NCBI RefSeq assembly: GCF_026210795.1
Contig: NC_089442.1
Location: 4,492,501-4,556,500 of the forward strand
DNA length: 64,000 bases
Direction of reading: 5' to 3'
Source of the DNA: Rhizophagus irregularis
Lineage: Eukaryota; Glomeromycota; Glomeromycetes; Glomerales; Glomeraceae
The notes below the pieces were generated by a model that saw only the letters and a program-made list of their open reading frames with translations, was not told where the DNA came from and did no database searches. The translations under genes were made by a program, and so were the position numbers. Positions 25,216 through 50,049 of the stretch are shown piece by piece. The number at the start of each line of letters is the position of its first letter. The stretch's first letter is position 1.

Positions 25216-25464
25216 GTAATATTATATAATAGTATTAATTAAAATAATATAATGTACTATTAAAACTTTATTAATAAATTATTAGCTATTACTTATTATC
25301 TATTGATTATATATTTAATCTAATTATATTAAGAGAAAATACAAAGTTTCATAACTTTTAGTTATAATATTTACCATCTAACCTAAATTTAAAGTATATA
25401 ATGAAGTTTTATAACTAAAGTTACGAAACTTAGTAATTAGTATCATTCAATTCCAATTTTAAAA

Positions 25465-26338: not shown

Positions 26339-26782
26339 GAGTAGTTTAGAGAAGATTTGTAACTGCATATATAATTAGATGAACAGCTTCTTATTATTTA
26401 ACATATGAGCTAATTTTACTCATCTTTGATTTTATCACATGTAATAATTACATATACATATTAGTTATATCAGTTGTACATAATTTTTTTTTGTGTCCTA
26501 TTTTCAACATTATTTTTATACAGTAATAATGAAAAACCAGTCATCTATTTATTGCAAACTTTGCTTCAAAGCTTTTACAACTTGTCAAAAATTACTTATT
26601 TATAAAAGAAATAAACATTTACATAATAAAATAATACCTTATTTTTATTTGTTATCTTAACCTTTTTTAGAACAAATGTAATTCTCTCATAATTCTTATT
26701 AAAAAAAAAACTTGGTTTTTTAAGACATACCATTGAAAAAAAACGTTTTTCAATTGAGAACTTTTCAGAAAATGTATTTGTA

Positions 26783-27111
26783 CAGTCGACCCCCTTTATA
26801 GGCACCTCCCATATAAGAACTCCCCTCCTTAAGGCACACATTTTTTAGTCCAGATTTTTTTATATATAAAATACCCCTTTTATAATCACTTTATTAGTTA
26901 TAAGTACAATCACACCAAACGTCAGTTCCATATTATAGTAAATATATGTAAAATTCCTCCTGCATAAACACACAAATCACGTGATTTATAAAATAACTGT
27001 GCGTTTCATTTTATTATTTTATTGTTTTACCATGAGGAAAAATTTAAGTTTTTTATTTTTCAAAAATTTGATGGTTTTAAGTATATTTTACATATAAACT
27101 TTTTTTTTAAT

Positions 27112-27142
<31 letters not shown>

Positions 27143-27267
27143 ATCACGTTTACTTAAAAATTTATATATGTGTAATTATATATTTAACCCTTACCAATAG
27201 GCACACCTCATTATAATCACACCATTGGATAGTCCCGAGGGGTGTGATTGTAGAGGGGGGCTGACTG
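26783..27267. mobile_element. 485-bp TA-target MITE, CAGTCGACCCCC end
   Basis: The left end CAGTCGACCCCCTTTATAGG and the inverse of the right end (GAGGGGGGCTGACTG) are imperfect TIRs flanked by TA (26781-26782, 27268-27269). Internal words AATCACACC and GTGTGATTGTAGAG repeat near the right end. A (TA)n microsatellite is at about 27113-27141. It resembles the ends of pogo/Tigger-type elements. Confidence 0.65.
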
Positions 27268-27517
27268 TATATCTTTTTAAAGATGAAGAAATGTTTAAAT
27301 ACAGCCTAATATTTAATACAAGTATTGATGTATTTTTGGAGGATTTGCAGAAGAAATAAGACTTAAACAAATACTTCATTATGATCAATGAAGCTTTTGA
27401 CAGAACCCTATTACAAATACTATAAGTTATGTTTTACTTGAAAACTATGAAAATACATATTAAATCAAATTTATATAGAACCAAACAGTATTATCAGAAA
27501 ATAATAGAGAATTCATA

Positions 27518-28118
27518 ATGGAAAAATTGACCTATAATTTTATTACTGATTCTGAAGAGTTTCAAGAAAAGTAAGTTTTTAAATTAATTTTACAATATAA
27601 TATAAATTTATTTTTAAACATATTATTTTATTATAGTAATAAAAAGCAAATATTAATAAATGATAATTCTATTTTAAACCCCACCATTTTTCAAAAGAAT
27701 TCATTATTTCTATTATATCCTTTAAAAAAATTTCATTATATTTTACCACAACCGCTTCAAAATGTAAATAACAGTAAGTTTAATTTTACCCTTTGTTTTC
27801 TTTATCTTTTGCATTAATACTTTATATCAGAATTTCTTTAAGGGAGTTTACAGATATTACGTAATTATCAAAGGGAGGACGGAGGGGGTAACTAAAATCT
27901 TATGTTACACTTAATAAAATATATAATTTATAAATATTATAATTTGATTGGTTATTAAATCTAATAAGGAGGGGGAGGGGAGTAAGTTTATATTAAACTA
28001 AATATTACGTAATATATATAACTCCCCTTATGGAGTATTATTAATTCAAATTCCATTATATTATGTATCACAGATTTCCTTTAATTCTACCATCCATAGT
28101 AGTTCCACTAAAAAATAA
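27518..28118 (+). CDS. Small spliced gene, exon 3 split by a MITE
   Basis: ATG at 27518 opens exon 1 (27518-27570, MEKLTYNFITDSEEFQE). A GTAAGT donor follows, with the acceptor ending at 27636. Exon 2 is 27637-27773, another GTAAGT donor follows, and the next acceptor ends at 27830. Joined, the first two exons give 63 residues without a stop. The third exon starts at 27831 and is cut after 10 nt by a 188-bp TA-flanked element (27841-28028). With the element and one TA set aside, the frame stays open to TAA at 28118 (about 30 codons, starting KFLYG). The match of phase at three junctions argues for a real gene that the insertion has disrupted or turned into an intron-like segment. No domain is recognised; the short protein lacks a signal peptide. 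Confidence 0.4.
27841..28028. mobile_element. 188-bp TA-target MITE inside an exon
   Basis: AGGGAGTTTACAGATATTAC at the left and the inverse of TATTACG...ACTCCCCT at the right form TIRs, flanked by TA (27839-27840 and 28029-28030). The core (AAAATCTTATGTTACAC, GATTGGTTAT, GGAGGGGGAGGGG) is shared with the element at 58181-58355, so both belong to one family. Confidence 0.65.
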
Positions 28119-28352
28119 TTGAACCTAAATAAAAATAAAAATAAAAGTAAAAATTTGTTTGGTAATGTAATTAATGTAATTATTATATATACCTGATTAT
28201 GATTTTTTTTTAATACTTGAAGTAGAAAAAGATCACAATTCCAAATTTTTTTCCTTTAAGTTTCACAAAAATTCTGGAATATGCTGAGAAAAAATATGCA
28301 TATAAGGAGTGATGTTTTCTTTTCTATATATAAATCTGGTTTATTTGCATTA
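28119..28352. other. Short intergenic stretch
   Basis: AT-rich sequence between the stop of the small gene and the GGGTC-rich end of the old composite element. No feature supported. Confidence 0.4.
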
Positions 28353-28505
28353 GAGAAAATCGCACGGTCGGATCGGGTCGGGTTACCTGGTTAACCCGAA
28401 CCGAAATTTTTTCAGGTCAGGTCGGGTCGGTAAACCATTCTGATCCGACCTGACCCATTCGACCCGAAAGTAGCCGGGTCACTTCGTAACTCGCAGGTTA
28501 CCCGA
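28353..28505. repeat. GGGTC/GACCC-rich left end of an old element
   Basis: Many copies of TCGGGT, GGTCAGGTCGGGTC and GACCTGACCC in an otherwise AT-rich region. A matching block of the same words occurs at about 50685-50835, beyond the palindrome array and the retrotransposon. The two blocks look like the ends of one non-autonomous element of about 1.2 kb before later insertions. ATTTG next to both outer ends may be a remnant target duplication. Confidence 0.5.
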
Positions 28506-28688
28506 AGTTTTATTATTAAATATTTCAATTAAAAAAACGTTTTGTAACGTTTTTTTTTATTAATTATACAAAAAATGTCAGGTTCGACATTTTTAATTAA
28601 AAAAAAAAAGATTTTTTAATTTTTATTGAAAAAACGTCAGGTCCCGGCATTTTACTTTTGTTTTTATATATAAAAACGCCGAAACTAT

Positions 28689-29050
28689 TTGTTTCGGCAT
28701 TTTTTTTTCGATCTTAGATGCAAAAACGCCAGAATCATTAGTTCCGGCATTTTTCATTTTGATTTTACATGTAAAAACGCTGAAACTAATAAAAACGCTG
28801 AAACTATTAGTTTCGGCATTTTTTTTTCAATTTTACATGTAAAAACGCCAGAATCATTAGTTCTGGCGTTTTTCATATTGATTTTACATGTAAAAACGCC
28901 GAAACTGATAGTTTCAGCATTTTTTTTGATTTTACATGTAAAAACACTGGAATCATTAGTTCCGGCATTTTTCATTTTGATTTTACATGTAAAAACACCG
29001 AAACTGATAGTTTCGGCATTTTTTTTCAATTTTACATGTAAAAACGCCGG
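28689..29050. repeat. Palindrome array, left part
   Basis: Units of about 50 bp each carry TTTTACATGTAAAAAC followed by a perfect or near-perfect palindrome. Two palindrome types alternate: GCCGAAACTGATAGTTTCGGC-like (21 bp core) and GCCGGAATCATTAGTTCCGGC-like. Open frames on both strands through this block are only translations of the repeat. The array is cut at 29050 by the LTR retrotransposon and resumes at 50054. Confidence 0.8.
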
Positions 29051-30144
29051 TGAGATCCCCCAATTCCCTCTGTCATCAATTTACAGAGTTGCCACATCGA
29101 ACGGGCATTCCCATGGTCGAATGAACGAATGAACGAATGAACGAACAATTAAACGAACAAACAAATAATCAACAACTTAATTATCAAACGACATAATCAA
29201 CGAACAACATACAATAACATTCTTGGTTCACGACATAAATAGCGTTAGTAATATAAAACGTCGAACGATATAAAATAAAATTTAACTTCTCTAAATTTTC
29301 CCCAAATTATATCCACTTTTACCTTTAATTTCAAACTTCGATGGCTCTCGCTACGAATTATTACTTTTCAAAAACGTATATTTAATTCATCTTCATTTTA
29401 TTCAATTAAAATTAATTAAGCAAACATTAATTAAAGTTTAGGGCGAACCTATTACCTTTAATTAACATTAAACTTTACTAACAAATAATTAAAAAATAAA
29501 ACTTATATTTTTATTGAGTTCTGTGGATGAGAACTATGGAATTACCTTGAATTCCGCTCTCTATATATACAATTTTTATACTACTTTCTATTCTATCTAT
29601 ATACTATCTTTTATGTTCTTTTTACATATTATCTTTGAACTATCTTTCTAATATACTATCTATATTTTAAATACGCTATCTTTTAATATGCTATCTTTTA
29701 ATATGCTATCTTTTTATATATGTTCTTTTTAATGTATTATCTTTTACGTTCCATCTTTATACTATCTTTTTATATTATCTTTTACATTATTTTGTGTTCT
29801 TTAATCTTTCTGACATTATTTTATACGTTCTTTTAATTCGCTTTATGTGTTTTGCTTATAATCTATCTTTTGTGGCTTATAATTATTCTTTCTTATCGTT
29901 CTTATTGTTAAAGATTGCTAAGCCGCAATTGATCGACTCTATTTATCCTATTGGTTCCTTGTCAATCATTCAATAAATATTACATCATGTAGATCATTAC
30001 TCTTCCTAAATGTTTATCCTTTTCGGCTAATTATTTATCCATCTACGCCAATCCACGATTAATTTGTTCGTTCTTAATATTTAATAATTACATTTGGTGG
30101 TTGAATTTTATCATCTTTTCGTGCTTGATATTTGACCGTTTACA
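29051..30144 (-). repeat. 3' LTR of the retrotransposon
   Basis: 1,094-bp direct repeat of 48957-50049. On the minus strand it starts TGTAAACGG and ends GATCTCA. Small differences from the other LTR include the count of GAACGAAT words near the TGAGATC end, one missing G in the TTTAGGGCG context, and single substitutions. A low-complexity stretch of CTATCTTTT-like words lies at about 29580-29780. Confidence 0.95.
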
Positions 30145-30159
30145 TTATCCCCTCTTCGC
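30145..30159 (-). promoter_or_regulatory. Polypurine tract
   Basis: On the minus strand the bases immediately before the 3' LTR read GCGAAGAGGGGATAA, a purine-rich primer site for plus-strand DNA synthesis, abutting TGTAAACGG. Confidence 0.7.
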
Positions 30160-30219
30160 TATTTGTGACCTCACAAATAACTTTAATAGAATCGAACTCG
30201 TGTCTTATCCATAATAATT

Positions 30220-31020
30220 TTAATCGAATCGAACTCGGGTCTTATCGAATACCTCTTTTCCTTTAATTACTATTTTTGGTGTAAATCCCCTTCGATCATA
30301 AAATTTCTTTAACCATTCTCCATTTTGTGGTGTTTTTAGTATTCTTCCGTCTAATTCTTTGAGTTTATACGCTCCATTTCCAAATTCTTCGTGAATTAAA
30401 TATGGTCCTTTCCATTTGTTCTGCAATTTTCCCGACCATTGTTTTTCTCTCCATGCTTCATATAATAATACTTTTTCTCCTATTTCAAATTTAGGTTTTC
30501 TAATTCCCCTTTTGTCGTGTTGTTGTTTTTGTTTCTCTTGAGCTTCTTTCACATTTTCTTTTATTTTCCTTCTTATTACCGGTAGCTCTTCAATTAATAT
30601 TTTTACTCTGTCAGCTAATGTTATTTTATTTTCGTCTTTATCCAATGGTAGTTTTGCTCTCCTTCCGTATGTCGCATAAAAAGGTTTAATCTTTGTTGAA
30701 GATTGCTTCTTTGTTCTATATGCAAATAATACAGATGGTATATGTTTATCCCAATTTTCTTCTCCTAATTTGGCTAATCCTTCGCATAAAGTTTTATTGA
30801 ATCTTTCGACCAAACCATTCGTTTGTGGCCTATATGGTGTACTTAATCTATGATTTATTCCACATCTTTCTACTAATTCTTCCATCATTTTATTGTTAAA
30901 GTGAGTCCCTCTATCGCTAATTATTTTCTTTGGACATCCATGTCTACAAATTATGTCCCTCCAAATAAATTCTACTACCTCTTTTGCTGTAGCTTCTTTT
31001 AGTGGTGCGCCTCGGGCCAT
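30220..31020 (-). pseudogene. Integrase, catalytic core second half and C-terminal domain
   Basis: 266 residues continuing the integrase begun at 30999-31445 in another frame. It contains the second and third catalytic acids (SDRGTHF with D36, and NGLVERFNK with E72), the TPYRPQTNG motif, and a C-terminal chromatin/GPY-type region (KWKGPYLIHEEFGNGAYKL). It joins strand-transfer core to C-terminal DNA-binding domain. The break from the N-terminal part lies at about 31000-31020, just after FTKWPEA, where one base appears to be missing. A continuous integrase is expected in an active element, so I read this as a disabling frameshift in this copy rather than a programmed shift. The ORF runs to TAA/TAG about 75 bp before the PPT. 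Confidence 0.85.
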
Positions 31021-31445
31021 TTTGTAAAATAATCCATTGCTACTACAATATACTTATTTCCCTTTTCTGTCTCTTTTAATGGTCCAACTATATCTATTCC
31101 AATCATCTCGAATGGTTCATTTATCTTTATCGGCATTAATTCGTTCCTTCCTCTTGGTTTTCCTCTCATTTGACAATTCCAACACGTTTTTACATATTCT
31201 TCTACATCTTCTTTCATATTTTTCCACCAATAATTTTCTTTTATTCTATCTAATGTCGCTTCTATTCCAAAATGTCCTGATAATTCGTTATCATGCATCA
31301 TGTACATCAATCCTTCGTATTCATAATCCCTGATTACTCTAAATTTGTTTTGTCCTTTTACTCTATATAGAATTCCTTCTTTCAATTCATATTTATTCTC
31401 CTTTTCGATATTGTCAATTATTCTCTTGTAATTATTTTCTTCCAT
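30999..31445 (-). pseudogene. Integrase, zinc-binding N-terminal domain and core first half
   Basis: 148 residues with the HHCC zinc finger (H51, H58, C88, C91) and the first catalytic aspartate D118 in GIDIVGPL, ending DYFTKWPEA before the frame is lost. It is in the same frame as the RT-kinase ORF upstream but separated by about 60 nt with two stops (31446-31508), so pol is broken there too, or the integrase is made separately. The region between has a second open frame reading ITKITNLEAKSIEEVL, which may be the original linker. Integrase inserts the cDNA copy; here the core is split over two frames. Confidence 0.85.
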
Positions 31446-31505
31446 AATACCTCTTCAATTGATTTCGCTTCTAAATTTGTTATTTTCGTTATGTGTTCTG
31501 TATTT

Positions 31506-33587
31506 TTAGTTCTGTGCTCTTCTCCATTTCTCCACCTCTTTAAATACTTTTCTCCAACTACTATTGTCATTTTTAACTTTTACTCGACTGTATCTTTTAG
31601 TATCTTTGTACACACTCTGATTTTCTTCAAACATTCTAACCATGTCCAAATATTCATCCTTCTTTAATGTTGGATATGATGATTTTTCCGTTTTCTTTGT
31701 TTCTCTTCCAATGTAATTTTTCCAACATACGTCGCCATCTTTTTCTAAAAATATCACTATTGATTTATCTATTGTTTCTTTCAATCTGAATATTTCTTTC
31801 TCCATCTCATGATTTCCGTGTGGAGTAATTAATCCTCTGTCAAAACTTTTCGTCTTTTGATAATAATATTCACAATATGGTGATTTGTCCAAAATTATTA
31901 TATCTGCATCTTCGTCATATTCTAACATTCTTCTATTTATTTGTTCTACTACTTCTTTTCTGAATCTCCATTCCGTCTCCATCTTTGATTCATAAAATTC
32001 ATCTTTATCTTTTCTTCTTCTTTTATAAGTATTGAATCTTACTTTTAATCCTTGTTTTTCCCATTCTTTAATTAAATTTTGTACTATACTTGTTTTTCCT
32101 AATCCGTCTACTCCGTCGATTATTACTATTTCCGGTTGTTCCTCCACTATCTTTAATAATCTGCTTAATGCGTCGGCGTTCATATTTTCTTTTCCTGACC
32201 TATGTATTACTTCAAAATTATATTGCTGTAATTCCATTACCCATCTTGCTCTTCTTCCTTTTGGTATCTTCGCATTCATCAATCCTTTTAATGCGCTGTG
32301 ATCTGTTATTACTTTAAACTTTCTATCGATCAAATATTTATGAAAATGTTGAATTCCCCAAACTATTCCTAAACATTCCAATTCTGTTATCGGATAATTT
32401 TCTTCTGCTGGTAATAAACTTCTACTTGCATATGCTATTACTACTTCTTTTCCTTTTTCATCTTTTTGGCTTAATACTGCACCTAATCCTTTTCCTGATG
32501 CATCTGTTATTAATAAAAATTCTTTCTTCCAATCTGGATGTCGCAATATTGGATATTGTATTAACTTTTCTTTCAACTTTTCAAACGCTTCTTGTTGTTC
32601 TCTTCCCCAAATGAAAGGTATTCCCTTCTTTCTCAAATCACTTATTGGTCTTGCTATCTTTGAAAAATTCTTCACAAATTTTCTGTAATATGAACAAAGT
32701 CCCAAAAATGATCTTACTTCTTTCACTGTTGTTGGTGCCTTCATTTCTTTTATCTTTTCTATCTTTTTATCGTCTGGCCTTAATCCATCATTTCCTACTA
32801 TATGTCCTAAAAATTCTATGTTTCTTTCCAAAAATCTACATTTTTTTAGTTTTATTATTAAATTATTCTCCTGTAACTTCTTTAATACTTTTTCCACATG
32901 TTCCATATGGTCTTTTAAATTTTCTGAATATATCATAATATCGTCAATATATACTACTACAAAATCGTTTATGTATTCTTCTAATATTTCATCCATTAAT
33001 CTTTGAAATGTTGCTGGTGCATTAGTTAAACCGAATGGCATTACATTATACTCAAATAATCCCTTTGAACATACAAATGCTGTTTTTTCTTTGTCTTCTT
33101 CTTTCATTTCTACTTGATTAAATCCTGCCGCTAAATCTATACTCGAAAACCATTTTGCTTTCCTGTATTTATCTAGTAATTCATCCATTCTTGGTAAAGG
33201 AAAACTATCCATTATAGTTATCTTGTTTAACTTTCTGTAGTCAATACAGAATCTATATTTTCCCGTTTTCTTTCCTGCTAATGTAACCGGTGAACTCCAT
33301 GGACTTTTTGATTTCCTTATCCTTCCTTGTCTTAGTAATTTATCTACTTCTTCGCTTATAAATTTTGCCTTCTCATCTGTTTCTTTGTATCTTCTTTGCT
33401 TTATTGGTTCTACCCCATCTTTTATTTTTATCTCATGTTGTGCCGCTTTTGTTCTTCCTTCTATTTCTTTGTCATATTCTAAAATATCTTGGTATTCTAA
33501 TAATAATTTTACCATATTTTCCCAAATTGGTTCTTCTACTTTCCCTATACTTAATTTTTGCATAAATTTTTCACTTGGTTCGAGCAT
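31506..33587 (-). CDS. Reverse transcriptase - RNase H - thymidylate-kinase-like fusion (pol)
   Basis: 693 residues in one frame. RT occupies about residues 50-260 with the RQGRIRKSKSPWSSP and MPFGLTNAPATFQ blocks and the YIDD catalytic box (213-216). RNase H is about 350-476 with D362 (TDAS), E402 (TELE), D429 (TDH) and D472 (NADALSR). Directly after, from residue 486, comes a P-loop kinase: IVIIDGVDGLGKTSIVQNL with Walker A G492-S500, then IIILDKSPYCEYYYQ (D567) in the position of the DR[YSH] motif of dTMP and deoxynucleoside kinases, IVIFLEKDGD, and a basic, lid-like GRETKKTEK stretch. Pfam-type Ty3 pol proteins normally go straight from RNase H to integrase. The likely role is phosphorylating a deoxynucleoside (mono)phosphate to feed cDNA synthesis; activity is inference. 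The frame opens upstream of the ATG (IESLGSEERETEK), and protease is in another frame. Confidence 0.92.
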   Translation of the reverse strand: MLEPSEKFMQKLSIGKVEEPIWENMVKLLLEYQDILEYDKEIEGRTKAAQHEIKIKDGVEPIKQRRYKETDEKAKFISEEVDKLLRQGRIRKSKSPWSSPVTLAGKKTGKYRFCIDYRKLNKITIMDSFPLPRMDELLDKYRKAKWFSSIDLAAGFNQVEMKEEDKEKTAFVCSKGLFEYNVMPFGLTNAPATFQRLMDEILEEYINDFVVVYIDDIMIYSENLKDHMEHVEKVLKKLQENNLIIKLKKCRFLERNIEFLGHIVGNDGLRPDDKKIEKIKEMKAPTTVKEVRSFLGLCSYYRKFVKNFSKIARPISDLRKKGIPFIWGREQQEAFEKLKEKLIQYPILRHPDWKKEFLLITDASGKGLGAVLSQKDEKGKEVVIAYASRSLLPAEENYPITELECLGIVWGIQHFHKYLIDRKFKVITDHSALKGLMNAKIPKGRRARWVMELQQYNFEVIHRSGKENMNADALSRLLKIVEEQPEIVIIDGVDGLGKTSIVQNLIKEWEKQGLKVRFNTYKRRRKDKDEFYESKMETEWRFRKEVVEQINRRMLEYDEDADIIILDKSPYCEYYYQKTKSFDRGLITPHGNHEMEKEIFRLKETIDKSIVIFLEKDGDVCWKNYIGRETKKTEKSSYPTLKKDEYLDMVRMFEENQSVYKDTKRYSRVKVKNDNSSWRKVFKEVEKWRRAQN

Positions 33588-33622
33588 CTTTTCCGTCTCT
33601 CTCTCTTCAGAGCCAAGACTCT

Positions 33623-34126
33623 CTATTTAAAATTCTGGTGCATTTTGAATACCTCTCCTTCATCATTACTTTCATATTCTTCATCGTCCTCGCTCTCCTC
33701 ACTTTCATATGCTGCTTCTCTTTCATATCCTACCGGAATCGTTATTATTTCTCCCTGTTCTTCTATTCTTAAGGTATGATCTTCGAAATTTATTTTTGCA
33801 TTATACAACTTCCATATGTCATTTCCCAAAATTAGATCCTCTTCTTCCGAATCGATTACTTCAACTTCTTTTAATATCTCCAATTCATCTTTGTATCTCA
33901 AAGTTATATTTGCCTTTCCTAATGCTGCTATCTTTTGTCCATTTGCTATTGTACATCTAAATTTACTCTTTCCAAATATAGGTATATTCAATCTTCTTCT
34001 TAATTTATCTGTTATCACACTTACTGCTGCTCCGGTATCTATTATTACATTTACTAATTGATCTTCAACTTCTAATTCTGTTCTCATTGCTGTGGTTCTC
34101 TTTTCCTCATTTTTCATAGTTCCCAC
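33623..34126 (-). CDS. Retroviral-type aspartic protease
   Basis: About 167 residues, in the same frame as gag but after one UGA codon. The catalytic motif DTGA (D30-A33, counted from the in-frame GTG) sits in VNVIIDTGAAVSVI, and LILGNDIWKL is the second conserved block of pepsin-like retroelement proteases. A methionine at 34115-34117 could start it independently. An acidic tail (ESEESEDDEEYESNDEGE) precedes the stop at 33623-33625. Reverse transcriptase lies in the -1 frame relative to protease; no convincing slippery heptamer is seen at the junction. It processes Gag and Pol after assembly. Confidence 0.85.
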   Translation of the reverse strand: MGTMKNEEKRTTAMRTELEVEDQLVNVIIDTGAAVSVITDKLRRRLNIPIFGKSKFRCTIANGQKIAALGKANITLRYKDELEILKEVEVIDSEEEDLILGNDIWKLYNAKINFEDHTLRIEEQGEIITIPVGYEREAAYESEESEDDEEYESNDEGEVFKMHQNFK

Positions 34127-34132
34127 CGAGTG

Positions 34133-34138
34133 TAGTCA
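34133..34138 (-). promoter_or_regulatory. UGA-CUA stop context between gag and protease (possible readthrough)
   Basis: The gag frame ends AAT TGA CTA CAC and the same frame then runs through protease without another stop. UGA followed by CUA is the established leaky context used for programmed readthrough in several viruses and cellular genes. Frame identity plus this hexamer suggests gag-pol expression by readthrough, but a chance stop cannot be excluded. Confidence 0.5.
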
Positions 34139-35245
34139 ATTTTTCTCGTTTATACTTCTTGGTCTATACGTTCCTTCCCTCAATTGCTTATGATACTTAA
34201 CATTCCCGTTTATTAATTGTCCATATGTTATATTCGCTCTACAATTTTTCACGTCTTCCACAATATCATAAGGTGGTATTCCGTCAGTTAATCTTGGTCC
34301 ATACTCTCTGGGTTTTGTTGGTCCTCCTGCTTCTCTCCATTTTCTTAGTCCTTCTGTTGGGTCGTAATAAGCTTGTCTTTTATTGCTCCATTTCATTCCT
34401 TTTGGTCTTATCATTCTATCCCCATTTTGTTCAGTTTGTTCATGTATATAATTTGGTGCCGTTGTACCACTTGGTATTTCTCTATCGTCCATTCTATTTC
34501 CCGCTTCTCTTAATTCTTCTTGTAAATTTCCCTCTTCATTATTATTTTTATATCCCACTATTGGACTCGTCCTTCTTGATTGTCTTCTTCCTTTTACTGC
34601 GTCATCTTTTGCGTATAATTCATTATGATAATTTAATTCTCCATCTTCATAATCATCGTAATAGCCTTGTGTGTAATATATTCCGTTATATTGTGGTTCC
34701 TCGTATCCATATTCATCATAATAATATTCTTCTTGATCATCATATTCGTCTATCATATTTACTCTCGCATTCCTTCCTTCGGGACAATTATTCTTATAAT
34801 GCCCCACTCTATTACATCCGTAACATGTCGGTACCCTATTCTGATTTAATTGATAACTATTCCTATTACCATTATTTAACCTTTTTCCCATATTCGGTCG
34901 ATACCTATTCCTATTATCGTTATTTAATCTTCTCTCCATACTCGCTACTTGTGCTTCTAATTTATTAATTCTTGCCTTTTCTTCAAACGCTTTAACTAAT
35001 TCGTCCTCATAATTTTCGTTCAATGGTTTTGCGAACATATTTTGTCTATTATCATCTTTTCCGGTATCTATCCTCGTACTAATTGGTTGTCCTATTGCTT
35101 TTCTAATAAATTCGTCCTTTGCACCTTCTTCTCTTACTGCTATTTCTATTGCTCCATTTAAGTTCCCTGGATTCTGTCTTCTAACTTGATATCCTATTGT
35201 TGGTTCCAGTCCTTCAATATAAAAATCTACTTGATATTCATCTGC
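34136..35245 (-). CDS. Gag, C-terminal part with zinc knuckle
   Basis: Open from the DNA-transposon junction (35245) to UGA at 34136-34138. The first methionine in this piece is at 35038, but the frame continues upstream (DEYQVDFYIEGLEPTIG), the end of the capsid-like domain. It contains coiled-coil-like KARINKLEAQVASMERRL, a CX2CX4HX4C nucleic-acid-binding knuckle (C72, C75, H80, C85 from that methionine) and a Tyr/Asp/Glu-rich region. It is the nucleocapsid end of Gag, separated from its capsid half by the 9.7-kb insertion. Removing the insertion and one TA joins both halves in frame. Confidence 0.85.
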   Translation of the reverse strand, partial: ADEYQVDFYIEGLEPTIGYQVRRQNPGNLNGAIEIAVREEGAKDEFIRKAIGQPISTRIDTGKDDNRQNMFAKPLNENYEDELVKAFEEKARINKLEAQVASMERRLNNDNRNRYRPNMGKRLNNGNRNSYQLNQNRVPTCYGCNRVGHYKNNCPEGRNARVNMIDEYDDQEEYYYDEYGYEEPQYNGIYYTQGYYDDYEDGELNYHNELYAKDDAVKGRRQSRRTSPIVGYKNNNEEGNLQEELREAGNRMDDREIPSGTTAPNYIHEQTEQNGDRMIRPKGMKWSNKRQAYYDPTEGLRKWREAGGPTKPREYGPRLTDGIPPYDIVEDVKNCRANITYGQLINGNVKYHKQLREGTYRPRSINEKN

Positions 35246-35470
35246 TACATCAGGAAATTTTATAGTGCGAAAAATTGCGTAAGTTTACGATTTTGTAAGT
35301 TTACGAAAGTTTATGGCATAATATTTCGAAAAATTTCAAAATATTACGTAAGTTTACAATTTCGTAAGATTTATGTGATATTACGGTTAAAATATTACGT
35401 AAGTTTTCAATATCGTAAGATTTACGCAATATTACGGTCAAAATATTCTGCAAATTTACGAAACTGTAAA

Positions 35471-35920
35471 CCTGCGTAATATTACGGTTGAAATATTTTG
35501 AAAATTTACGAAACTGTAAACCTGCGTAATATTACGGTTGAAATATTTCGAAAATTTACGAAACTGTAAACCTGCGTAATATTACGGTTGAAATATTTCG
35601 AAAATTTACGAAACTGTAAACCTGCGTAATATTACGGTTAAAATATTTCGAAAATTTACGAAACTGTAAACCTGCGTAATATTACGGTTGAAATATTTCG
35701 AAAATTTACGAAACTGTAAACCTGCGTAATATTACGGTTAAAATATTTCGAAAATTTACGAAACTGTAAACCTGCGTAATATTACGGTCAAAATATTCTG
35801 CAAATTTACGAAACTGTAAACCTGCGTAATATTACGGTTGAAATATTTCGAAAATTTACGAAACTGTAAACCTGCGTAATATTACGGTTGAAATATTTCG
35901 AAAATTTATGAGATTGTAAA
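35471..35920. repeat. Nine 50-bp tandem repeats, subterminal
   Basis: CCTGCGTAATATTACGG starts at 35471, 35521, 35571, 35621, 35671, 35721, 35771, 35821 and 35871, an exact 50-bp period with few substitutions. Each unit includes the palindrome CGTAATATTACG and AATTTACGAAACTGTAAA. Diverged copies extend left to about 35275. Such arrays near CACTA-type ends are usually transposase binding sites. Confidence 0.9.
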
Positions 35921-36144
35921 CTGCATATGCAGTAGAACGTATACAAGGGCATGTGATACTATTGAATAATCAAAAATAATATAAACACCTTTTCTTTTAT
36001 ATAAACACCTTTTTTTTAAGTTTGGGAAAGCAAATTTATTTTTATTTACGAATTTTTTATTATTTATAATTTTTATGTTAAAAATTAAAGTAAATTCTAA
36101 TTTTTATTATAACTTAATAAAAAAAATACACATTTGATACTTGT

Positions 36145-36270
36145 TCGCTACTATTTTATAAAATAGTACCCAGGCTGTACGGCGTGGACGTCAGTATCAG
36201 TCACAGCCCAAAAAAAACGTGAGTCTCCAGCCGATATTTGGTACGGACTGGGCCTAGCTACACTTAATAA
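36145..36270. repeat. GC-richer imperfect inverted repeat
   Basis: The palindrome TACTATTTTATAAAATAGTA (about 36149-36168) is followed by CCCAGGCTGTAC, whose inverse-like partner GTACGGACTGGGCC lies about 75 bp on. It is the most GC-rich patch of the left transposon arm; its function is unknown. Confidence 0.35.
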
Positions 36271-36291
36271 ATAATAAAAAAATAAAAATAA

Positions 36292-36913
36292 TTATCTTCT
36301 TCTACGATACGTAGGTAAGTTTCTCCTTTGCCCTACGATCATCACGCGACTAAAATTGATCAAATTTATCAAATTTAAAACATGAACGTAAATATTAATT
36401 ATAAATTTTATTATAGTATAATTACCCGGCCTCTCCCAAAATCTCGTTCTAAATTCACGATAATATCTTGCGCCGGTACGCGTCCACAGCCGCCGCCCAG
36501 TGGTTACCATTACGATAAAGGACATAGTTCTAAATATCAAAATCAGTTTGAATATTCGGTAAATACATTTAATTTATATGAATGTAATGTTATTTATTTA
36601 CTTACATGGTAATCCCCTGACGAGGTTCCTCCACTTTTGGCTGCACTGTTGCCCGGAAACCCTCGTTCGAAATATTCTATTTATTCTGATTCAATTAAAT
36701 GGATTGGTTAATTTGAATTTAAATTCTTTCTTAAAGAAATTATAGATATTAGTCATATGAACCTATTGGCAACAGAGTCCCAAAAATCTTGGCGGCTTCT
36801 ACCATTAATATTATGGTAGGCACGGTTTCTGTCGCGCGTATGCCGACAAGTTCGTCCATCATAGCCAAGTTCCAATGGACGTTATAGGAACGACGACGTG
36901 TTTGGCGAGGCAT
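36292..36913 (-). pseudogene. Decayed SANT/Myb-like DNA-binding gene
   Basis: The start MPRQTRRRSYNVHWNLAMMD lies at 36911 downward. After VGIR the frame is lost by what looks like an extra CG in a CGCGCG run; the next frame continues RDRNRAYHNINGRSRQDFWD, a tryptophan-spaced pattern like trihelix/SANT domains of transposon-associated proteins. A second open piece at 36425-36545 (GARYYREFRTRFWERP) may be a later exon. Small SANT-like proteins often accompany DNA transposases. Assignment rests on pattern only. Confidence 0.3.
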
Positions 36914-37477
36914 TATTAGATTTGATTTGATTTTTATAATTTGATTTTGGGATGAGTAAAAATTTGAAAGAAAGTCGTAAAATGTCACTTTAAATAAAAT
37001 TTGAACAATACCTCTTTGGTTTGATTTTATTTCTCGTTTCAATTAAAATTTAATTTATTAGACTTTTCATCATTAAACATATTAATTAAATCTCATGCGG
37101 ATATGGATTATCTAAATATAAATATCATGATTCTAAATATAAATATAAATCACTTAATTTATTTTAATTTTTTTTAAAAAAAAATCTTAGTTTGATTTCA
37201 ATTAAAAATAATTAAAAATCATGTACATGATTTCAATTAAAAATAATTAAAAATCATGTACATGTTTTGGTTATTTAAATATAAATATCAATATATTATA
37301 TTTAAAAATAAACCAATTTATTATTAGCACATTCTATTGAATTTTAAAAAAATCAATTTTTTTTTAAAAAAAAATCATCAATATATCATATTTAAAAATA
37401 AAACAATTATATTCTGATTAAATATTTTGCGTACATTTCTTAAAAAAATCATAAAAAAAAATCTTGTACGTCGTACA

Positions 37478-37690
37478 TGCAATTACTAAATATCATCCCC
37501 TTGTGATAAATAAAAAATTACGCAACACAAATTCAACACAAACTCAACACAAATTTAACAAATTTAACGAAATTTGGCCAAAATTAATAATTTTTTACCA
37601 GAATTATCAACACAAATTGAACACAAATTGAACACAAATTTCAGTCACGATTTATTTATGTCACACCCGTGTTGTTAATAATTAAATAAA
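37478..37690. repeat. Internal inverted repeat, left arm
   Basis: About 205 bp, including the words AACACAAATTGAACACAAAT and GTCACACCCGTGTTGTTAA, that recur inverted at 43385-43590. The two arms bracket exactly the transposase gene and the accessory gene, forming a 6.1-kb cassette inside the 9.7-kb element. Confidence 0.75.
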
Positions 37691-37786
37691 TAAATCTGCA
37701 TTTTATTTATGATATGGGAAACGTGACCATAAATTCTTTAAGGATATAATTTTATTAAAATAAATCAAAACTCCTATATCAAGTGA

Positions 37787-40766
37787 CTAAAAAATATATT
37801 TATTTACGAAATATTCATTTTGTTTATCAAATCGGGGTACTATGTGAACGACACCATGTATAGACTCTATAGCTACAAAGTTATATAATTCTATCAATTT
37901 TAAGTGAGGACATCCATATAAATATGGGTTCCTTTTAGATTTAAAATCGTACCAATTGAATTAATGCGAGATTTAGCGGTGGGTCTGTTAATACTTCTGC
38001 TAACAATAAGGCCTATAAATAATAAATATTTATTAATACTTTATAATAAATTATTACATAAATTGGAAAAATACCTGTCCATAACAAAGTTCTTTGTCTG
38101 ATATATAATCATTTGATTCTTCAGAATCCATTGAAATAGCTATGTCGCTAAACCATACTTTATTATGATACCTGTTTGTGGCACGCATTATGGCACCATT
38201 TTCCAGTGTTACCGATCCGTATATGTTTATTCGGGTTTCACCAATAATTGTGAACCCATCAAGTAAATCTAGATATGAATCCAGACAACTTATAAATCTA
38301 GCAAAACCGGTCTGCATTTTATTGTCTACGGAATCTTTTTTTTCATTAAAAAATGTATTTGCATCTTGTAAAGAGAAATCAAAGAGTCTTGCAGAAAATT
38401 TACAAGTGCGAGGTGTTTTTGCCGGATTCACTGAATGTTGAGACATTCTAATAGATATTGCTTGACGTTTTATCTATTAATTTAATTTCCATCTTAAGTT
38501 ATATAATAAATATATACAATAAATAAATTTCCAAATACTTACAGTTCGTAAAAGCTGAGGTTCGACATCTTTTTTATTGCTAATTCGGTAGGGTATTTTA
38601 ACGAAATATTTGTGGAGACTTTCGTAAGTTTCTGTGGTATAGCCATTTATTGCGCCATAAGATCGTATTGAGTCAATAATGCGATAAACCCATGAATGCA
38701 ATTTAGGCAACTTCAAATTGGAAGGAGAAACAAATTTAAAAGCCTTGACAAACATCCGCGCCCATCTATGTATTGCATCCTAAAATTTAAATGTTAATTT
38801 AATTTATTTAATTTAAATTTTCGATTTTACTAAAATTTTAATACATACATTAAATTTCTCCAAGTCACTTTCACTAAATTCTTCATATCTACTTAAAATA
38901 TACATTTCATTCCAATATTCGTACAATTTCACAAGATCATCATTATTTACAAAATTATCTACTTCGTTATTATTTTCATCATATAAATTATCAATAACAA
39001 ATATCATGACTTTCATCAAACTTCGATATTCATTAGCAGTTAATCTTGCAATTGACTGCAGTCCATTGGAAAAAATTTTAATGGCGGGAAAACGTGGAAT
39101 TGCTGCTAGACGGCGATCTACTTCTTCAACTAATTTATTACCATTAACATGTTGCAATTTTAAGATATCGCACGTGAAGATAATTTGATAACGAAATAAA
39201 CCCAAATCTAAATGATGCATTCTGTCAGGAACAGTAGCCAAGTAGATATTTATATTCCTTGATAATATAAATATTTATAATTAATATATATATATGTTAT
39301 TATAATTATTTCTACTTTTGCATACTTACGGCAAATCCCAAAAAAAATTAGGTACAGATTCTATGCAAACAGATTTTTGTGTATCATTTTCAAAATATTT
39401 ACGCATTTCATCATGAGTTCTTAGTATTACATCATTAACCGATAAGTTTATATTTGCAAGATTGTCCCTTTTAATTAAACAGGAGTGACATGGAAGGCTT
39501 GAATTGGAGGATTTATAAACTAAACAAAAACTTGCGGCTTCTGGCCAATCTGCAATAATAGTTGAAACTCTAGGATAAAACCAGGTATTTTCATTATTTA
39601 TAAAAAGGTCTATACCATCTTTTAATAAAATAATTGGTTCTAGTAAATGACGTAAAGATTTATGAAAGGTATCACAAACCAGATCTTTATTTGCAGCTTC
39701 TAAAATTGGTAAATATCCCAAAAGTTGCTTTGCATCCTGTTTATTACGACGCCATATTGGAATATTGCCTAATGAAATATATATTGGATGCAATTGACTT
39801 TTTCCTAATGTATCTGTAGTTGTTGCATCTGAATATAAAATAATTGATAATAATTTGGAACCAGTAGGTAAGGATTCTTGCGTAGTTTTCCACCATTTTC
39901 CAGTGTTTTGTTCACTGTAAATACTTTCTCTATTATACTATAAAATAATATAAATAAATTAAAATAAATATTATTTAAATTATTGAATTAACTAATATTT
40001 ACTATTTACCTCATAGTTTTCGTAAGATAGCGCAAAATTTTGTGTTATGTCAGGAACAGTTAAGATATTTTTGATGCACTGTATTAAGTTTTGATAATAA
40101 AGAAAATAATCTTTATCCTTATGTTTTGTTATAAGAACTTTACTAAATTCTAAATTAGAAAACTTCATATTATTCATAAATGCTCGTCCTCGTTCAATAT
40201 TTTTTGGTAATGGTGATTCTGTAAGATTTGAATGTTTATTAAAAAAACGTATTATTTCATTACCACCTTTATTGTTTATTTTATATTTCGTTACTAATAA
40301 CATTAGATCTTTATAAGCATCATTAGAAATTCTGTGCAAGTTTTGGTATTGAGATTTTTGGGTTCTTCAAAAATTTCAGGCTCTTCAGACGAATCTAATA
40401 TATTTTCAAAGTTACTATCTTCGCGCTCATCTCTGATATTGCACTTCCAATACTGTCAAATGACATATTTTGTACATTATTATCATCATCCACCTAAAAT
40501 TATAAACCAAAATGAGTTAGTATAATTTGAGCTTTTTCTTTAAAAAGAATAATCTGGAATAACATAATTACCTCAACTTTATCATTTTCATATTCACTAC
40601 TTAGATTACTTCTTGTATCCATTTCACTGCTATATTTTTCACTATCATTATTATCATCATCATCTTCTACTTCTACTTCTACATTTTTTAAGCATTTTTG
40701 GGCGTGTTGAGTATATGCAAAGCGTTGACTGAATATTCGCATACAAAGGGGGCATTTGAAACTCAC
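37787..40766 (-). pseudogene. Plavaka-type zinc-finger transposase, seven exons, frameshifted
   Basis: Exons by splice signals: 40766-40572, 40493-40010, 39937-39330, 39257-38849, 38779-38543, 38473-38075, 38012-37787. It starts with a C2H2 finger (CPLCMRIFSQRFAYTQHAQK), then an acidic linker. The core carries the Plavaka hallmarks ILYSDATTTDTLGKSQLHPI, LGNIPIWRRNKQDAKQLLGY and VPDRMHHLDLGLFRYQI. The C-terminal part includes DAIHRWARMFVKAF and TTETYESLHKYFV. Introns are 50-90 bp with GTAAGT/GTATGT donors. Three single-base shifts are visible: two in exon 2 (before RDERED and before QNLHRIS) and one in exon 7 (extra T before WYDFKSKRN). The enzyme would cut and join the element's ends; this copy looks inactive. 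Confidence 0.8.
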
Positions 40767-44900: not shown

Positions 44901-44951
44901 TATGATGTGTAAACTTGCGCAACTTTTCGCACTATATAATTTCCTGATGTA

Positions 44952-46278
44952 AGGCATGTCCTCTAGTTGCTATTCTTAATATTTGTCTAAATCTTCTTGT
45001 ATATTCCTCAACACTTTCATTCACTTCTTGTCGAGTTTTTCTTAATTCTAGCATTTTCTTTCTTCTAACATCCTCTCTAGTAAATCTCCTTTTTATTCTA
45101 TGTTTTAAATCGTTATCATTATCTGCATCTACCCAATTCACTAAGTGACCTGCATTTAATTCTTTCATTTCATTGTACCATTGTGCTGCTGCTCCTCTTA
45201 AATGTGCTGCTGCGTATGCCGCTTGTCTTATACCATTAGCTCCTGCTGTTTTTCCGACCGCTGTAAATGCTACCTCAAATTGTCTAACCCAATCACTAAC
45301 ATCTTCATCTTCTCTTCCATAAAAGAGTGGTATACTAATTGTTCCTCCTGCTTCATTCCCTGCATTTTCGATCCTTTCTATCAAACTTTCTCCTGCTTCT
45401 ACTGCTGCGTTCAAAGTATTAGCTGGATAACCTAAAGCATTCTCTATCAATCTTTTTATTTGGTTCTCAGTTGCCATATTTAATATATTCTCTTGAAATA
45501 AATCTCGTAAATTGTAATCAGATAATTCACTTTCGTTGTCAGAATTTTTAATATTTAATGAACTATTCGTATCTGAGTTTTGACTTAAGTCGATATCTCC
45601 TCTATTTATAACATTTTCAATTTCATCTTCAAATTCTTCTTCATTAAAATTTTCAATATTTTCATCCCATACTTCATCCGGACTTAATATTTCTCCAGTT
45701 TTTTCTGAATCATCTGTATTATCTTCTTCTGATTCTTCATTATCACTCTTTTCACCACTTTCTTCACTATCTATTATTCCTGCTTGTTCTTTCAACAACT
45801 TATCTAACTTTTTCTTTAATTCTTTTTCCGACTCATTTTTATTTTCTTGAAAGATTTCAATGAATTCTTTATCTAAAATTTCTCCATCTGTATATCCCAT
45901 ACTAGTTAATCTTAACAATTCTTCTTCAGTTATTATTGTTCCAATATCTTCAAAAATCTTCTGTAATCTTTTTACCCGATCATTAATTTCATCGACATCT
46001 TCTTCCTCACAATCTTTGCATATGGTTTTTCCTAATCTAAACATATCATTCATCCATCTTATTTCGCATCTTTCGCACCAGGTTGTGTTCTCATTTAACC
46101 ATTTGTGCACCTCTTTTCTTAACTCTCTATCTTCTAATTCTATTATTCCCATATACCTTTCTATGAATTCTTCTGTTACCATTATTCGATTATTAACTCC
46201 GAACTTCTTCATTCTTCGAATTTCCGATACATCTATTTCGTATCCTAATTTTTCTAAGTTGTTTATTAGATTCTATTA
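44952..46278 (-). CDS. Gag, second zinc ribbon, acidic linker and capsid domain
   Basis: The frame is open from about 46278 (first methionine 46212) to the DNA transposon at 44949. From that methionine: a four-cysteine ribbon C46, C49, C65, C68 (WCERC...ICKDC), an acidic, probably disordered stretch (about 145-245), a methionine in NMATENQIKRL (246) that may be the classical gag start, and a capsid-type retrotransposon gag domain at about 292-420 (PLFYGREDEDVSDWVRQFEVAF, AAHLRGAAAQWYNEM, VEEYTRRFRQI is its end). The last few codons before the stop at 44932 belong to the transposon end. It builds the virus-like particle. The upstream N-terminal part is in the frame one base away. Confidence 0.85.
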
Positions 46279-47407
46279 GTTCATCTTGTTCGTTTTTCTG
46301 CGCTTCTTTGATACATTCCCCGCATTCGCTATCCGCCTCTTCCATTTCGAACCTTCTATTACCACATTTTTCACATATTATTGTTTCTTTTTCTAACCAT
46401 TCTTTTATCCTCCGTTCTTTTTCCCTCTCATCCATTTCCTCTATCTCTTGAATTTTATCCATAAATATTCTTGTTACCAATATATCCATTTCTATCATCA
46501 ACTTTATTCCTATCTTCCAAATGTACCTCAGTTGATCTTTATCCATAGCATTTGACCTTCTTCTTAATTCACTAAATTTCCATGATTTATCTCCTATTAT
46601 TATTTCTAATTCTTCCTCAGAACTATTTTCCAATTCGTAACTTGCTGGACTATCTTCACTTTCTGAATCTTCTGGTTCTTTTGTAAAACCCCTAGTATCT
46701 ATAAATATTCTTATTATCTTCTGTACCATATTCTTATGATGTTCATGAACATTATCTATTTCTACATTCTCATGTTTTATTCCTCGTATTAATTCTTTTA
46801 CTTTTTCTTCACTTTCTGCTATCTTTTCTTCTTCATACAATAATTCCTTGAACTTTCCTATTGCTTCTACTTCTGCTCTTACAGCCCTAATTTCTCCTAA
46901 TGCAACCCTATACCATTGCCAAAATTTTTCAAATCTTCTTTCAACATCCCAATCTTCTAAAATATATTTGTGTTCTATTAATTCGGGATTTCCAATTAAT
47001 CTATCAAATACTTCGTTCTCTAGATTTCTTTCAATACAATCTCTTACGATTACTAATATAATTGTTCGTAATCCTTTCTCTTTTATTTTCGGCTGTATTC
47101 TATATCTTATTGATTCTGTTATTCTATCCATTATATCCCTACATTTTCCTTTATGTATTGTATCTTCTCTTTCCGAATTATTCATACTTAATAAATCTAA
47201 TACTCCCTTAATCGTCACATCATTATATATTATTATTGCATCTTCAAATTTAAATAATGCGTCCCAAAATTTCTTGAATACTATTGGTTCATTTACTATT
47301 GGATAACATAATTCACAATTTAAACATTCGTCCAATTCTTCCGTTCCTACTTCGTGTTCCTCTTTATGTGTTCTATATTCACTTTCCCATTGATGATACC
47401 ATTCCAT
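46193..47407 (-). CDS. N-terminal Gag extension with zinc-ribbon module
   Basis: 404 residues from the first ATG after the 5' leader. It contains a CX2CX2C cluster near the start (C28, C31, C34), long charged helices (for example EIRAVRAEVEAIGKFKELLY), and a four-cysteine ribbon C345, C348, C362, C365. The segment before and through the ribbon (MDKIQEIEEMDEREKERRIK, then WLEKETIICEKC) matches the corresponding segment of the next ORF (IERYMGIIELEDRELRKEVH, then WLNENTTWCERC), so the module is duplicated. Ty3/gypsy Gags normally lack such an extension. It ends at 46193 shortly after overlapping the next frame; the two are probably one protein joined by a +1 shift, or were split by an indel. 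Confidence 0.75.
   Translation of the reverse strand: MEWYHQWESEYRTHKEEHEVGTEELDECLNCELCYPIVNEPIVFKKFWDALFKFEDAIIIYNDVTIKGVLDLLSMNNSEREDTIHKGKCRDIMDRITESIRYRIQPKIKEKGLRTIILVIVRDCIERNLENEVFDRLIGNPELIEHKYILEDWDVERRFEKFWQWYRVALGEIRAVRAEVEAIGKFKELLYEEEKIAESEEKVKELIRGIKHENVEIDNVHEHHKNMVQKIIRIFIDTRGFTKEPEDSESEDSPASYELENSSEEELEIIIGDKSWKFSELRRRSNAMDKDQLRYIWKIGIKLMIEMDILVTRIFMDKIQEIEEMDEREKERRIKEWLEKETIICEKCGNRRFEMEEADSECGECIKEAQKNEQDELIESNKQLRKIRIRNRCIGNSKNEEVRS
46252..46258 (-). promoter_or_regulatory. Candidate +1 frameshift heptamer CUUAGAA
   Basis: Where the two gag frames overlap, the zero frame reads CAA CTT AGA AAA and the next part needs a +1 shift to GAA AAA TTA. CUU AGG C is the known +1 site of yeast Ty1, in which the CUU-bound tRNA slips to UUA; CUU AGA A has the same layout. 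An ordinary one-base indel in this copy would look the same. Confidence 0.35.
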
Positions 47408-48938: not shown

Positions 48939-48954
48939 CTCGGAGCATGCACCA
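48939..48954 (-). promoter_or_regulatory. tRNA primer binding site
   Basis: Two bases after the 5' LTR the minus strand reads TGGTGCATGCTCCGAG, complementary to a tRNA 3' end finishing GCATGCACCA. The tRNA identity is not determined. Confidence 0.7.
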
Positions 48955-48956
48955 TA

Positions 48957-50049
48957 TGAGATCCCCCAATTCCCTCTGTCATCAATTTACAGAGTTGCCA
49001 CATCGAACGGGCATTCCCATGGTCGAACGAACGAATGAACGAACGAATGAACAATTAAACGAACAAACAAATAATCAACAACTTAATTATCAAACGACAT
49101 AATCAACGAACAATATACAACAACATTCTTGGTTCACGACATAAATAGCGTTAGTAATATAAAACGTCGAACGATATAAAATAAAATTTAACTTCTCTAA
49201 ATTTTCCCCAAATTATATCCACTTTTACCTTTAATTTCAAACTTCGATGGCTCTCGCTACGAATTATTACTTTTCAAAAACGTATATTTAATTCATCTTC
49301 ATTTTATTCAATTAAAATTAATTAAGCAAACATTAATTAAAGTTTAGGCGAACCTATTACCTTTAATTAACATTAAACTTTACTAACAAATAATTAAAAA
49401 ATAAAACTTATATTTTTATTGAGTTCTGTGGATGAGAACTATGGAATTACCTTGAATTCCGCTCTCTATATATACAATTTTTATGCTACTTTCTATTCTA
49501 TCTATATACTATCTTTTATGTTCTTTTTACATATTATCTTTGAACTATCTTTCTAATATACTATCTATATTTTAAATACGCTATCTTTTAATATGCTATC
49601 TTTTAATATGCTATCTTTTTATATATATTCTTTTTAATGTATTATCTTTTACGTTCCATCTTTATACTATCTTTTTATATTATCTTTTACATTATTTTGT
49701 GTTCTTTAATCTTTCTGACATTATTTTATACGTTCTTTTAATTCGCTTTATGTGTTTTGCTTATAATCTATCTTTTGTGGCTTATAATTATTCTTTCTTA
49801 TCGTTCTTATTGTTAAAGATTGCTAAGCCGCAATTGATCGACTCTATTTATCCTATTGGTTCCTTGTCAATCATTCAATAAATATTACATCATGTAGATC
49901 ATTACTCTTCCTAAATGTTTATCCTTTTCGGCTAATTATTTATCCATCTACGCCAATCCACGATTAATTTGTTCGTTCTTAATATTTAATAATTACATTT
50001 GGTGGTTGAATTTTATCATCTTTTCGTGCTTGATATTTGACCGTTTACA
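48957..50049 (-). repeat. 5' LTR of the retrotransposon
   Basis: 1,093 bp, direct repeat of 29051-30144, the upstream LTR in the minus-strand reading direction, so it should contain the promoter. Near-identity with the other LTR indicates recent insertion. Confidence 0.95.

Follow-up and report, generated by a model that had tools for sequence, protein, structure and literature searches.

A conserved thymidylate-kinase-like domain in the pol of a Ty3/gypsy retrotransposon clade of arbuscular mycorrhizal fungi

Here we describe a stretch of 64,000 nucleotides from the arbuscular mycorrhizal fungus Rhizophagus irregularis (RefSeq assembly GCF_026210795.1, contig NC_089442.1, positions 4,492,501 to 4,556,500 of the forward strand), hereafter the window. 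On its minus strand lies a Ty3/gypsy long terminal repeat (LTR) retrotransposon that spans 21 kb, the pol of which encodes, behind reverse transcriptase (RT) and RNase H, a P-loop kinase domain resembling thymidylate kinase (TMPK). This domain, termed KIN, is a real and conserved accessory domain in the pol of one Ty3/gypsy clade of arbuscular mycorrhizal fungi, and a search of the open PMC literature gave no description of it. An earlier note on this DNA, made from the letters alone, had proposed such a domain and knew of no described example; among the papers listed by that search, likewise, none deals with a retroelement that carries a nucleotide kinase.

An open kinase-like frame behind RNase H

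The kinase-like stretch occupies residues ~480-693 of a 693-residue open reading frame (ORF; 31506..33587, minus strand), where it follows RNase H in the same frame with no stop in between, as had been claimed. KIN itself (31509..32150, minus strand) comprises 214 residues in frame with RT-RNase H and ends at a stop codon at 31506-31508. Upstream of it, the RT domain (32796..33272, minus strand; RVT_1, E 6e-45) and the RNase H domain (32220..32609, minus strand; RT_RNaseH/RT_RNaseH_2) cover residues 106-264 and 327-456 of the ORF, respectively. A chance ORF is ruled out: across 2000 shuffles of its DNA the longest stop-free run reached 95 codons, so that none attained 213, and the stretch recurs at 53-100% identity at no fewer than 150 genomic places.

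The Walker A motif, the DKSPYCEYYYQ stretch and the basic lid named in the earlier note are all present. The P-loop pattern of TMPKs, GxDGxGK[ST], is found in 13 of 13 members, in which Val14, Asp15, Gly18 and Lys19 of the Walker A motif GVDGLGKT (32091..32114, minus strand) are invariant; the same four residues, together with Arg64, Lys89 and Arg149, also occur without exception in a set of 16 diverse members. A larger set of 80 sequences was largely picked by the P-loop motif and is thus no test of Walker A conservation. It shows Trp61, Phe63 and Arg64 of a W.FR motif (31959..31970, minus strand) in 80 of 80 sequences each, a stretch that we take, by comparison with TMPKs, to be a candidate for base or phosphate binding. 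The motif DKSPY[CS]EYxYQ (31857..31889, minus strand) occupies the place of the TMPK DRX motif, with Asp88 and Lys89 conserved in 78/78 sequences; the copy at locus L054 has Asn in place of Asp88 (NK). Toward the C-terminus, a basic motif RE.KK (31692..31706, minus strand; RETKK in the window) is the putative lid, with Arg149 in 80/80 and Lys153 in 79/80.

The kinase marks one Ty3/gypsy clade

Searching the genome (146.7 Mb, 32 contigs) with KIN revealed at least 151 matches at 53-100% identity; 150 of 173 candidates were scored and 150 of the 151 reported matches listed, so that the counts are lower bounds. By identity to the window domain, the matches form four families: A (~93-100%), to which the window copy belongs, B (83-87%), C (59-66%) and D (53-57%), with single or partial copies in between. 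Among the 57 listed matches with at least 93% identity over at least 200 residues, 53 have no internal stop.

A parallel search was made with the RT-RNase H of the window, in which 90 of 363 candidates were scored and listed. In 89 of the 90 listed matches a kinase follows downstream on that strand at a distance of no more than 1 kb, the remaining one having its kinase at 15.3 kb. Conversely, 92 of the 150 listed kinase matches have one of these 90 RT matches within 1 kb upstream; the other listed kinases are partial copies, or their RT was unscored or not found. The search with the KIN-less Ty3 element at locus L055 (95 of 360 candidates scored and listed) returned 40 matches at 48-49% identity that are RTs of the kinase clade, and 55 L055-type RT matches at 51% identity or more, none of which has a listed kinase within 3 kb. 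Given 89/90 against 0/55, the kinase marks one Ty3/gypsy clade. The L055 group shares 47% identity in RT-RNase H and the same order of protease, RT, RNase H and integrase with the kinase-bearing elements, whereas its integrase follows RNase H directly and its 55 matches all lack a listed kinase. In some copies of this group the RT frames are open to 1041-1665 residues.

Named hosts of homologues are R. irregularis, R. clarus, R. diaphanus and Glomus cerebriforme, all Glomeraceae, and proteins of R. irregularis DAOM 197198 are ~97% identical to the window kinase domain. No named host outside Glomeraceae occurs among the 88 proteins found with 22 diverse members, most of which have hosts without a name. 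Scans of IMG/VR and GTDB with short conserved patterns gave no relative in prokaryote genomes or viral contigs at that sensitivity. A domain unique to the window copy is ruled out by the number of genomic matches, the homologues in other species and the linkage to RT.

Loci L049 and L054 carry kinase and integrase with no RT within ~1.5 kb upstream, and are perhaps deletion derivatives or another element type. Locus L046 is a family-A copy without most of gag-RT that is open through the kinase.

Purifying selection and exchange between families

KIN is under purifying selection in all four families. Ratios of nonsynonymous to synonymous differences, obtained by NG86 counts within families (pN/pS) after copies with stops or incomplete domains had been dropped, which lowers pN, are 0.064 in A (n=30), 0.237 in B (n=3), 0.082 in C (n=5) and 0.142 in D (n=5). 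The corresponding values for RT-RNase H are 0.051 (n=24), 0.143 (n=2), 0.061 (n=5) and 0.031 (n=4), and those for parts of the integrase are 0.061-0.206. Between families, the ratio for KIN (dN/dS) is 0.08-0.18, with dS of 0.8-2.4 and partly saturated. Neutral decay of the kinase is ruled out by pN/pS far under 1 in every family. The earlier note had named recurrence and selection in relatives as a test of its proposal; the four families and the Glomeraceae homologues show the recurrence, and the four families the selection.

Family B is a mosaic, and the kinase has been exchanged between families. In the RT tree, B groups with C2 (support 100/100), whereas in the KIN tree it groups with A (98/98). 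A KIN tree constrained to keep B next to its sisters from the RT tree was rejected by the approximately unbiased (AU) test at p 1.7e-5, and an RT tree constrained to unite B with A at p 4e-49; these p-values are indicative, as the tree groups were named after the trees had been seen. Along its sequence, B resembles C up to the N-terminal edge of the kinase and A from there on; in the integrase the resemblance to C returns, with dN of 0.08-0.13 to C compared to 0.29-0.32 to A. This exchange probably came about through template switching between co-packaged RNAs.

Linkage of the kinase within pol

The kinase is attached to its neighbors in several ways. In families A to C, it follows RNase H as a fusion and is closed by a stop codon, and the integrase is a separate ORF. 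The spacer from kinase to integrase measures 52-490 nt, and stops lie between the starts of the two in 37 of the 37 copies tested (locus L001, a duplicate of the window copy, was left out). A gap of exactly 63 nt with two stops, as in the window copy, is seen in 24 of 27 family-A copies, and the integrase begins with its own ATG in five translated loci. The earlier note had placed the kinase between RNase H and integrase: the position is right, and the two stops, the 63-nt gap and the integrase's own ATG show that it does not share one ORF with the integrase. At the family-A loci L023 and L027, the kinase is out of frame with RNase H.

In family D (five loci), the kinase continues into the integrase without a stop across a distance of 30 nt. 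At three of these loci the frame of the kinase differs from that of RNase H; at L044 the two share a frame but have stops between them, and at L042 no RT lies within the 10 kb examined. Family-D copies appear in the RT search with RT frames of 493 residues. Several homologues of 251-267 residues start with Met and carry a leader of ~50 residues before the kinase, and they look like separate ORFs. A similar leader precedes the kinase in B, C and several others, and is missing in family A. The idea that an open ORF is what keeps the domain with Pol therefore does not hold: the integrase is joined to the kinase in D and separate in A to C, and some relatives resemble separate ORFs. The module is kept whether joined to RNase H or to the integrase.

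The domain is probably of the thymidylate-kinase type

Profile searches suggest a thymidylate-kinase-type nucleotide kinase as the likely enzyme class, with dTMP as our best guess for the substrate. The earlier note had set similarity of residues 486-693 to nucleotide kinases as a test, and TMPK profiles indeed match 13 of 13 members. For the window domain a TMPK profile comes first in Pfam, NCBIfam and PHROGs, whereas in Pfam and NCBIfam some of the other members score higher with generic P-loop families. The Pfam TMPK family PF02223 matches 13/13 members at E ≤0.01 (best 7.7e-6), two other element copies exceed its cut-off, and in a wider set it matches 21 of 22 members with a best E of 7.4e-8, the lowest among the families shown; it is listed for 23 of 116 homologues. 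The dTMP kinase models of NCBIfam match 13/13 and rank first for the window domain. Among PHROGs, phrog_761 ("thymidylate kinase") also matches 13/13, aligning with the window domain at E 6.4e-14 over residues 7-209. As controls, E. coli Tmk meets PHROG 761 at E 7e-38, compared to Cmk at 1e-6, AroK at 8e-4, Gmk at 0.14 and Udk at 0.19, for which only 25-65 residues at the P-loop end are aligned.

The best profile relatives of KIN are the phage-type TMPKs of PHROG 761 from Microbacterium, Gordonia and Agathobaculum phages. An hhalign comparison of KIN with five of them gave 97.4% probability (E 1.2e-11) over a stretch that takes in the D[RK]...EYxY motif and ends at residue ~135, and the wider KIN set gave 97.5%. 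They share with KIN the GxDGxGKT pattern and a D[RK]xxx[SC]EYxY-like motif, yet they are stand-alone genes of 171-180 residues, 25-33% identical to KIN (tblastn) and without the DK. In two Microbacterium phages the gene is a neighbor of dUTPase. In Gordonia phage Cozz it adjoins MazG, with ThyX three genes away, in phage SheckWes it adjoins a MazG-like gene that bears the name dUTPase, and in the Agathobaculum phage the surrounding genes are hypothetical. These neighbors favor a role of the phage branch in the dTTP (thymidine triphosphate) pathway. As a set, the phage TMPKs meet E. coli Tmk no better than KIN does.

Compared to E. coli Tmk and PF02223, KIN has the P-loop GxxGxGK[ST], a D-basic-x motif and a basic lid in the same order, judged by eye and by profile. 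It differs in having DK for DR, in a window copy under the Pfam cut-off and in an HMM alignment limited to the P-loop. PDB sequences searched by phmmer and profiles gave matches at the P-loop level only; yeast TMPK (1tmk) came at E 0.12, and a group of cytochrome c peroxidases was spurious. Public protein names in the family include "enzymatic polyprotein" and, for proteins from JGI, "thymidylate kinase", so automatic annotation has already caught the TMPK similarity. The earlier note's "thymidylate kinase" is right in that TMPK profiles are the nearest, and goes too far as an identity: strict TMPK membership is not supported because of the DK, and with the window copy below the Pfam cut-off as well we use the name TMPK-like.

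Recent capture of the host's CDC8-type gene was considered and rejected. That gene (C13:3242213-3242981) matches in several pieces, as expected with introns, and its motifs differ (GCDKAGKST, DRYAYSG). A second thymidylate-kinase-like host sequence is present at locus L047 (C24:3288271-3288729); its Walker A region reads EGCEDTNTTLQ, so the product probably does not bind ATP. The ORF upstream of it resembles an HMG box.

A possible role in nucleotide supply, and its rivals

We regard it as moderately probable that the element-encoded KIN is a catalytically active kinase of (deoxy)nucleoside monophosphates ((d)NMPs) on the TMPK branch, which supports the supply of deoxynucleoside triphosphates (dNTPs), especially dTTP, for reverse transcription. 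The kinase would be expressed as part of Pol, possibly be cleaved off by the element protease, and be active in or near the particle. There it would phosphorylate a dNMP, most likely dTMP, and so raise the local supply of dNTPs (dTTP) for reverse transcription. The first cDNA strand of pol, copied from RNA of 43-46% A, would need about that share of dTTP. Only tentatively do we go further and suggest that the clade carries its own thymidylate kinase as a Pol domain tethered to RT or integrase, provides dTTP for copying its strongly A-rich RNA into a first cDNA strand of ~45% T in pol, and passes the domain around as a circulating selectable cassette.

Beyond the profiles, base composition speaks for this role. 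In one element from each of families A to D, the plus strands of RT-RNase H and integrase consist of 43-46% A and 9-13% C, compared to 30-32% A and 18-21% C in the same parts of the one KIN-less element compared; RT stretches of the other KIN-bearing loci compared have 40-45% A. At third codon positions of RT-RNase H, A reaches 50-58% and C 4-9% in L031, L034, L041 and the window (32163-33587), compared to 27% A and 22% C in KIN-less L055. Such A-rich, C-poor third positions recall lentiviruses. The first-strand cDNA of such an A-rich pol RNA would be T-rich. The host itself is AT-rich, the window having 73% AT.

A number of points weigh against the proposed role and enzyme class. The arginine of the TMPK DR[YHS] motif is absent, DK standing in its place in 78/78 sequences, and PF02223, although the top Pfam family for the window domain, scores 20.9 bits in the whole ORF at a cut-off of 27. 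AAA_14 also matches 13/13 members, and in other members AAA_28 reaches 2.2e-6 against 7.7e-6 for TMPK, just as the "hypothetical" NCBIfam model PRK08233 reaches 2.2e-6 against 8.3e-6 for dTMP kinase in some. E. coli Tmk meets KIN at the P-loop only, with 8.1 bits, hardly above the 5.8 of Gmk. The lid half depends on PHROG 761 and the by-eye alignment, since the phage hhalign ends at residue ~135. Another (d)NMP, or the end of a polynucleotide, might be the substrate. In A and C, selection constrains KIN nearly as much as RT, but in B (0.237 vs 0.143) and D (0.142 vs 0.031) it does so less, and the choice of copies lowers pN throughout: the 30 copies of family A were those with the highest KIN protein scores, and the loci of B to D were hand-picked with long open frames in view. 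As for composition, a single KIN-less element does not suffice to establish a correlation.

One alternative is a broader deoxynucleotide or nucleoside kinase, similar to dNK or the T4 dNMP kinase, which would not be specific for dTMP and would salvage several precursors for RT. The dNK family PF01712 matches 5 of 22 members (best 1.6e-4), lysine replaces the DR arginine, and the family is very distant from canonical TMPKs. We consider this unlikely, as TMPK profiles rank first for the window domain in all three collections, the dNMP-kinase family phrog_139 is absent from the 18 PHROG families matched at E ≤0.1, and KIN shares the SEYxY-type motif with the phage TMPKs, four of five of which lie near dUTPase, MazG or ThyX genes. 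Distinctly less likely still is a polynucleotide 5'-kinase or another RNA/DNA end-processing enzyme that acts on the ends of primer, template or cDNA. Some Gordonia phage relatives are annotated "polynucleotide kinase", and an end-processing enzyme beside RT and integrase is plausible; however, RefSeq names these phage genes thymidylate kinase in its copies of Cozz and SheckWes, and no family with polynucleotide kinase as its name is among those listed from Pfam, NCBIfam and PHROGs, where the generic P-loop family AAA_33 does occur. To our knowledge, Ty3-type replication has no 5'-kinase step.

The kinase fold could also be non-catalytic, serving as a spacer or as a surface of Pol for dimerization or host interaction. 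The variable linkage to RNase H or integrase, as if the domain were loosely tethered, and the weaker selection compared to RT in B and D would agree with this, but the Walker lysine, the acidic residue, the DK and the lid residues are invariant or nearly so down to ~45-50% identity, and with pN/pS far under 1 in all four families we find it highly improbable. Retrotransposons do capture host sequence, and KIN might be a host gene picked up by chance, a passenger without effect on fitness or an artifact of annotation. The abundance of genomic matches, the low pN/pS, the occurrence in four named species and the exchange between families make this hardly credible, and the host CDC8-type gene has other motifs.

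Relation to known retroelements

Retroelements are thought to rely on their host for dNTPs. The exceptions known to us are dUTPases, which clean the pool and feed back dUMP instead of phosphorylating precursors. The host lineage here is coenocytic and an obligate plant symbiont. If the proposed role is true, a conserved pol kinase would be a second, biosynthetic solution to dNTP supply, and the question of limiting dNTP pools in retrotransposition would become directly testable by biochemistry. The exchange of a pol enzyme between element families is demonstrated in either case.

The earlier note had drawn a parallel to the dUTPase of non-primate lentiviruses, and this agrees with PMC4531489, which places that dUTPase in pol between RNase H and integrase, the same slot and the same dNTP-pool theme as KIN. 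The lentiviral enzyme differs in size (~130 residues compared to ~210 of the P-loop kinase), in enzyme type and in hosts. LTR retrotransposons with a dUTPase are also described from rotifers, planarians and fungi (PMC5408684, PMC6431247). They too have an accessory nucleotide-pool domain in pol, but their dUTPase lies between protease and RT, whereas the kinase here follows RNase H. The word "kinase" does not occur in the main text of either paper.

Structure and state of the window copy

The element has gag, aspartic protease and RT-RNase H, all preceding the integrase, as membership in Ty3/gypsy (Metaviridae) requires. Its 5' LTR (48957..50049, minus strand) has TG...CA ends and pairs with a 3' LTR (29051..30144, minus strand); the two are 99.27% identical over 1094 columns, with seven mismatches and one gap, and are flanked by the target duplication CCGG at 50050-50053 and 29047-29050. 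This high identity points to a recent insertion. A putative primer-binding-site-like sequence, TGGTGCATGCTCCGAG (48939..48954, minus strand), starts with TGG 2 nt past the 5' LTR as read from the sequence, and a purine-rich tract (30145-30157, minus strand) directly precedes the 3' LTR. The LTRs were found by a whole-genome DNA search; self-comparison of window positions 24000-44000 and of 10-kb loci missed all but those of L046, the window copy being spread over 21 kb.

A leading ORF of 404 residues (46193..47407, minus strand) lies between the 5' LTR and gag, and a Pfam scan gave no family above cut-off for it. The first part of gag (44932..46212, minus strand) matches Retrotrans_gag PF03732 at E 4e-11. 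The remaining part (34136..35248, minus strand) carries a CCHC zinc knuckle (18.7 bits, cut-off 20.8) and is 47% identical to P0030 over 34157-35248. It is followed by the aspartic protease (33623..34126, minus strand; gag-asp_proteas, E 3e-9). Beyond the kinase, the zinc-binding part of the integrase ORF (30999..31445, minus strand; Integrase_H2C2, E 3e-22) begins with its own ATG, and the catalytic core and C-terminal part (30220..31020, minus strand) are in a different frame, so that the integrase runs over two frames (30999-31020), compared to a single frame in L046. With gag interrupted and the integrase split, the window copy is damaged, yet its RT-RNase H-kinase ORF is open.

The interruption of gag is a nested DNA transposon that starts at ~35246 and ends near 44950. 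It contains a fragment of a Plavaka transposase at 39329-39793 (E 5e-13) and a tandem array of 50-bp units at 35325-36021, and the sequences near 35250 and 44947 resemble each other in inverted orientation; the part adjoining 35246 has at least 39 further matches in the genome (40 of 426 candidates scored). Outside the element, tandem repeats of ~100 bp that are alike flank both LTRs (28670-29050 and 50047-50670), so the retrotransposon seems to have inserted into a tandem-repeat array.

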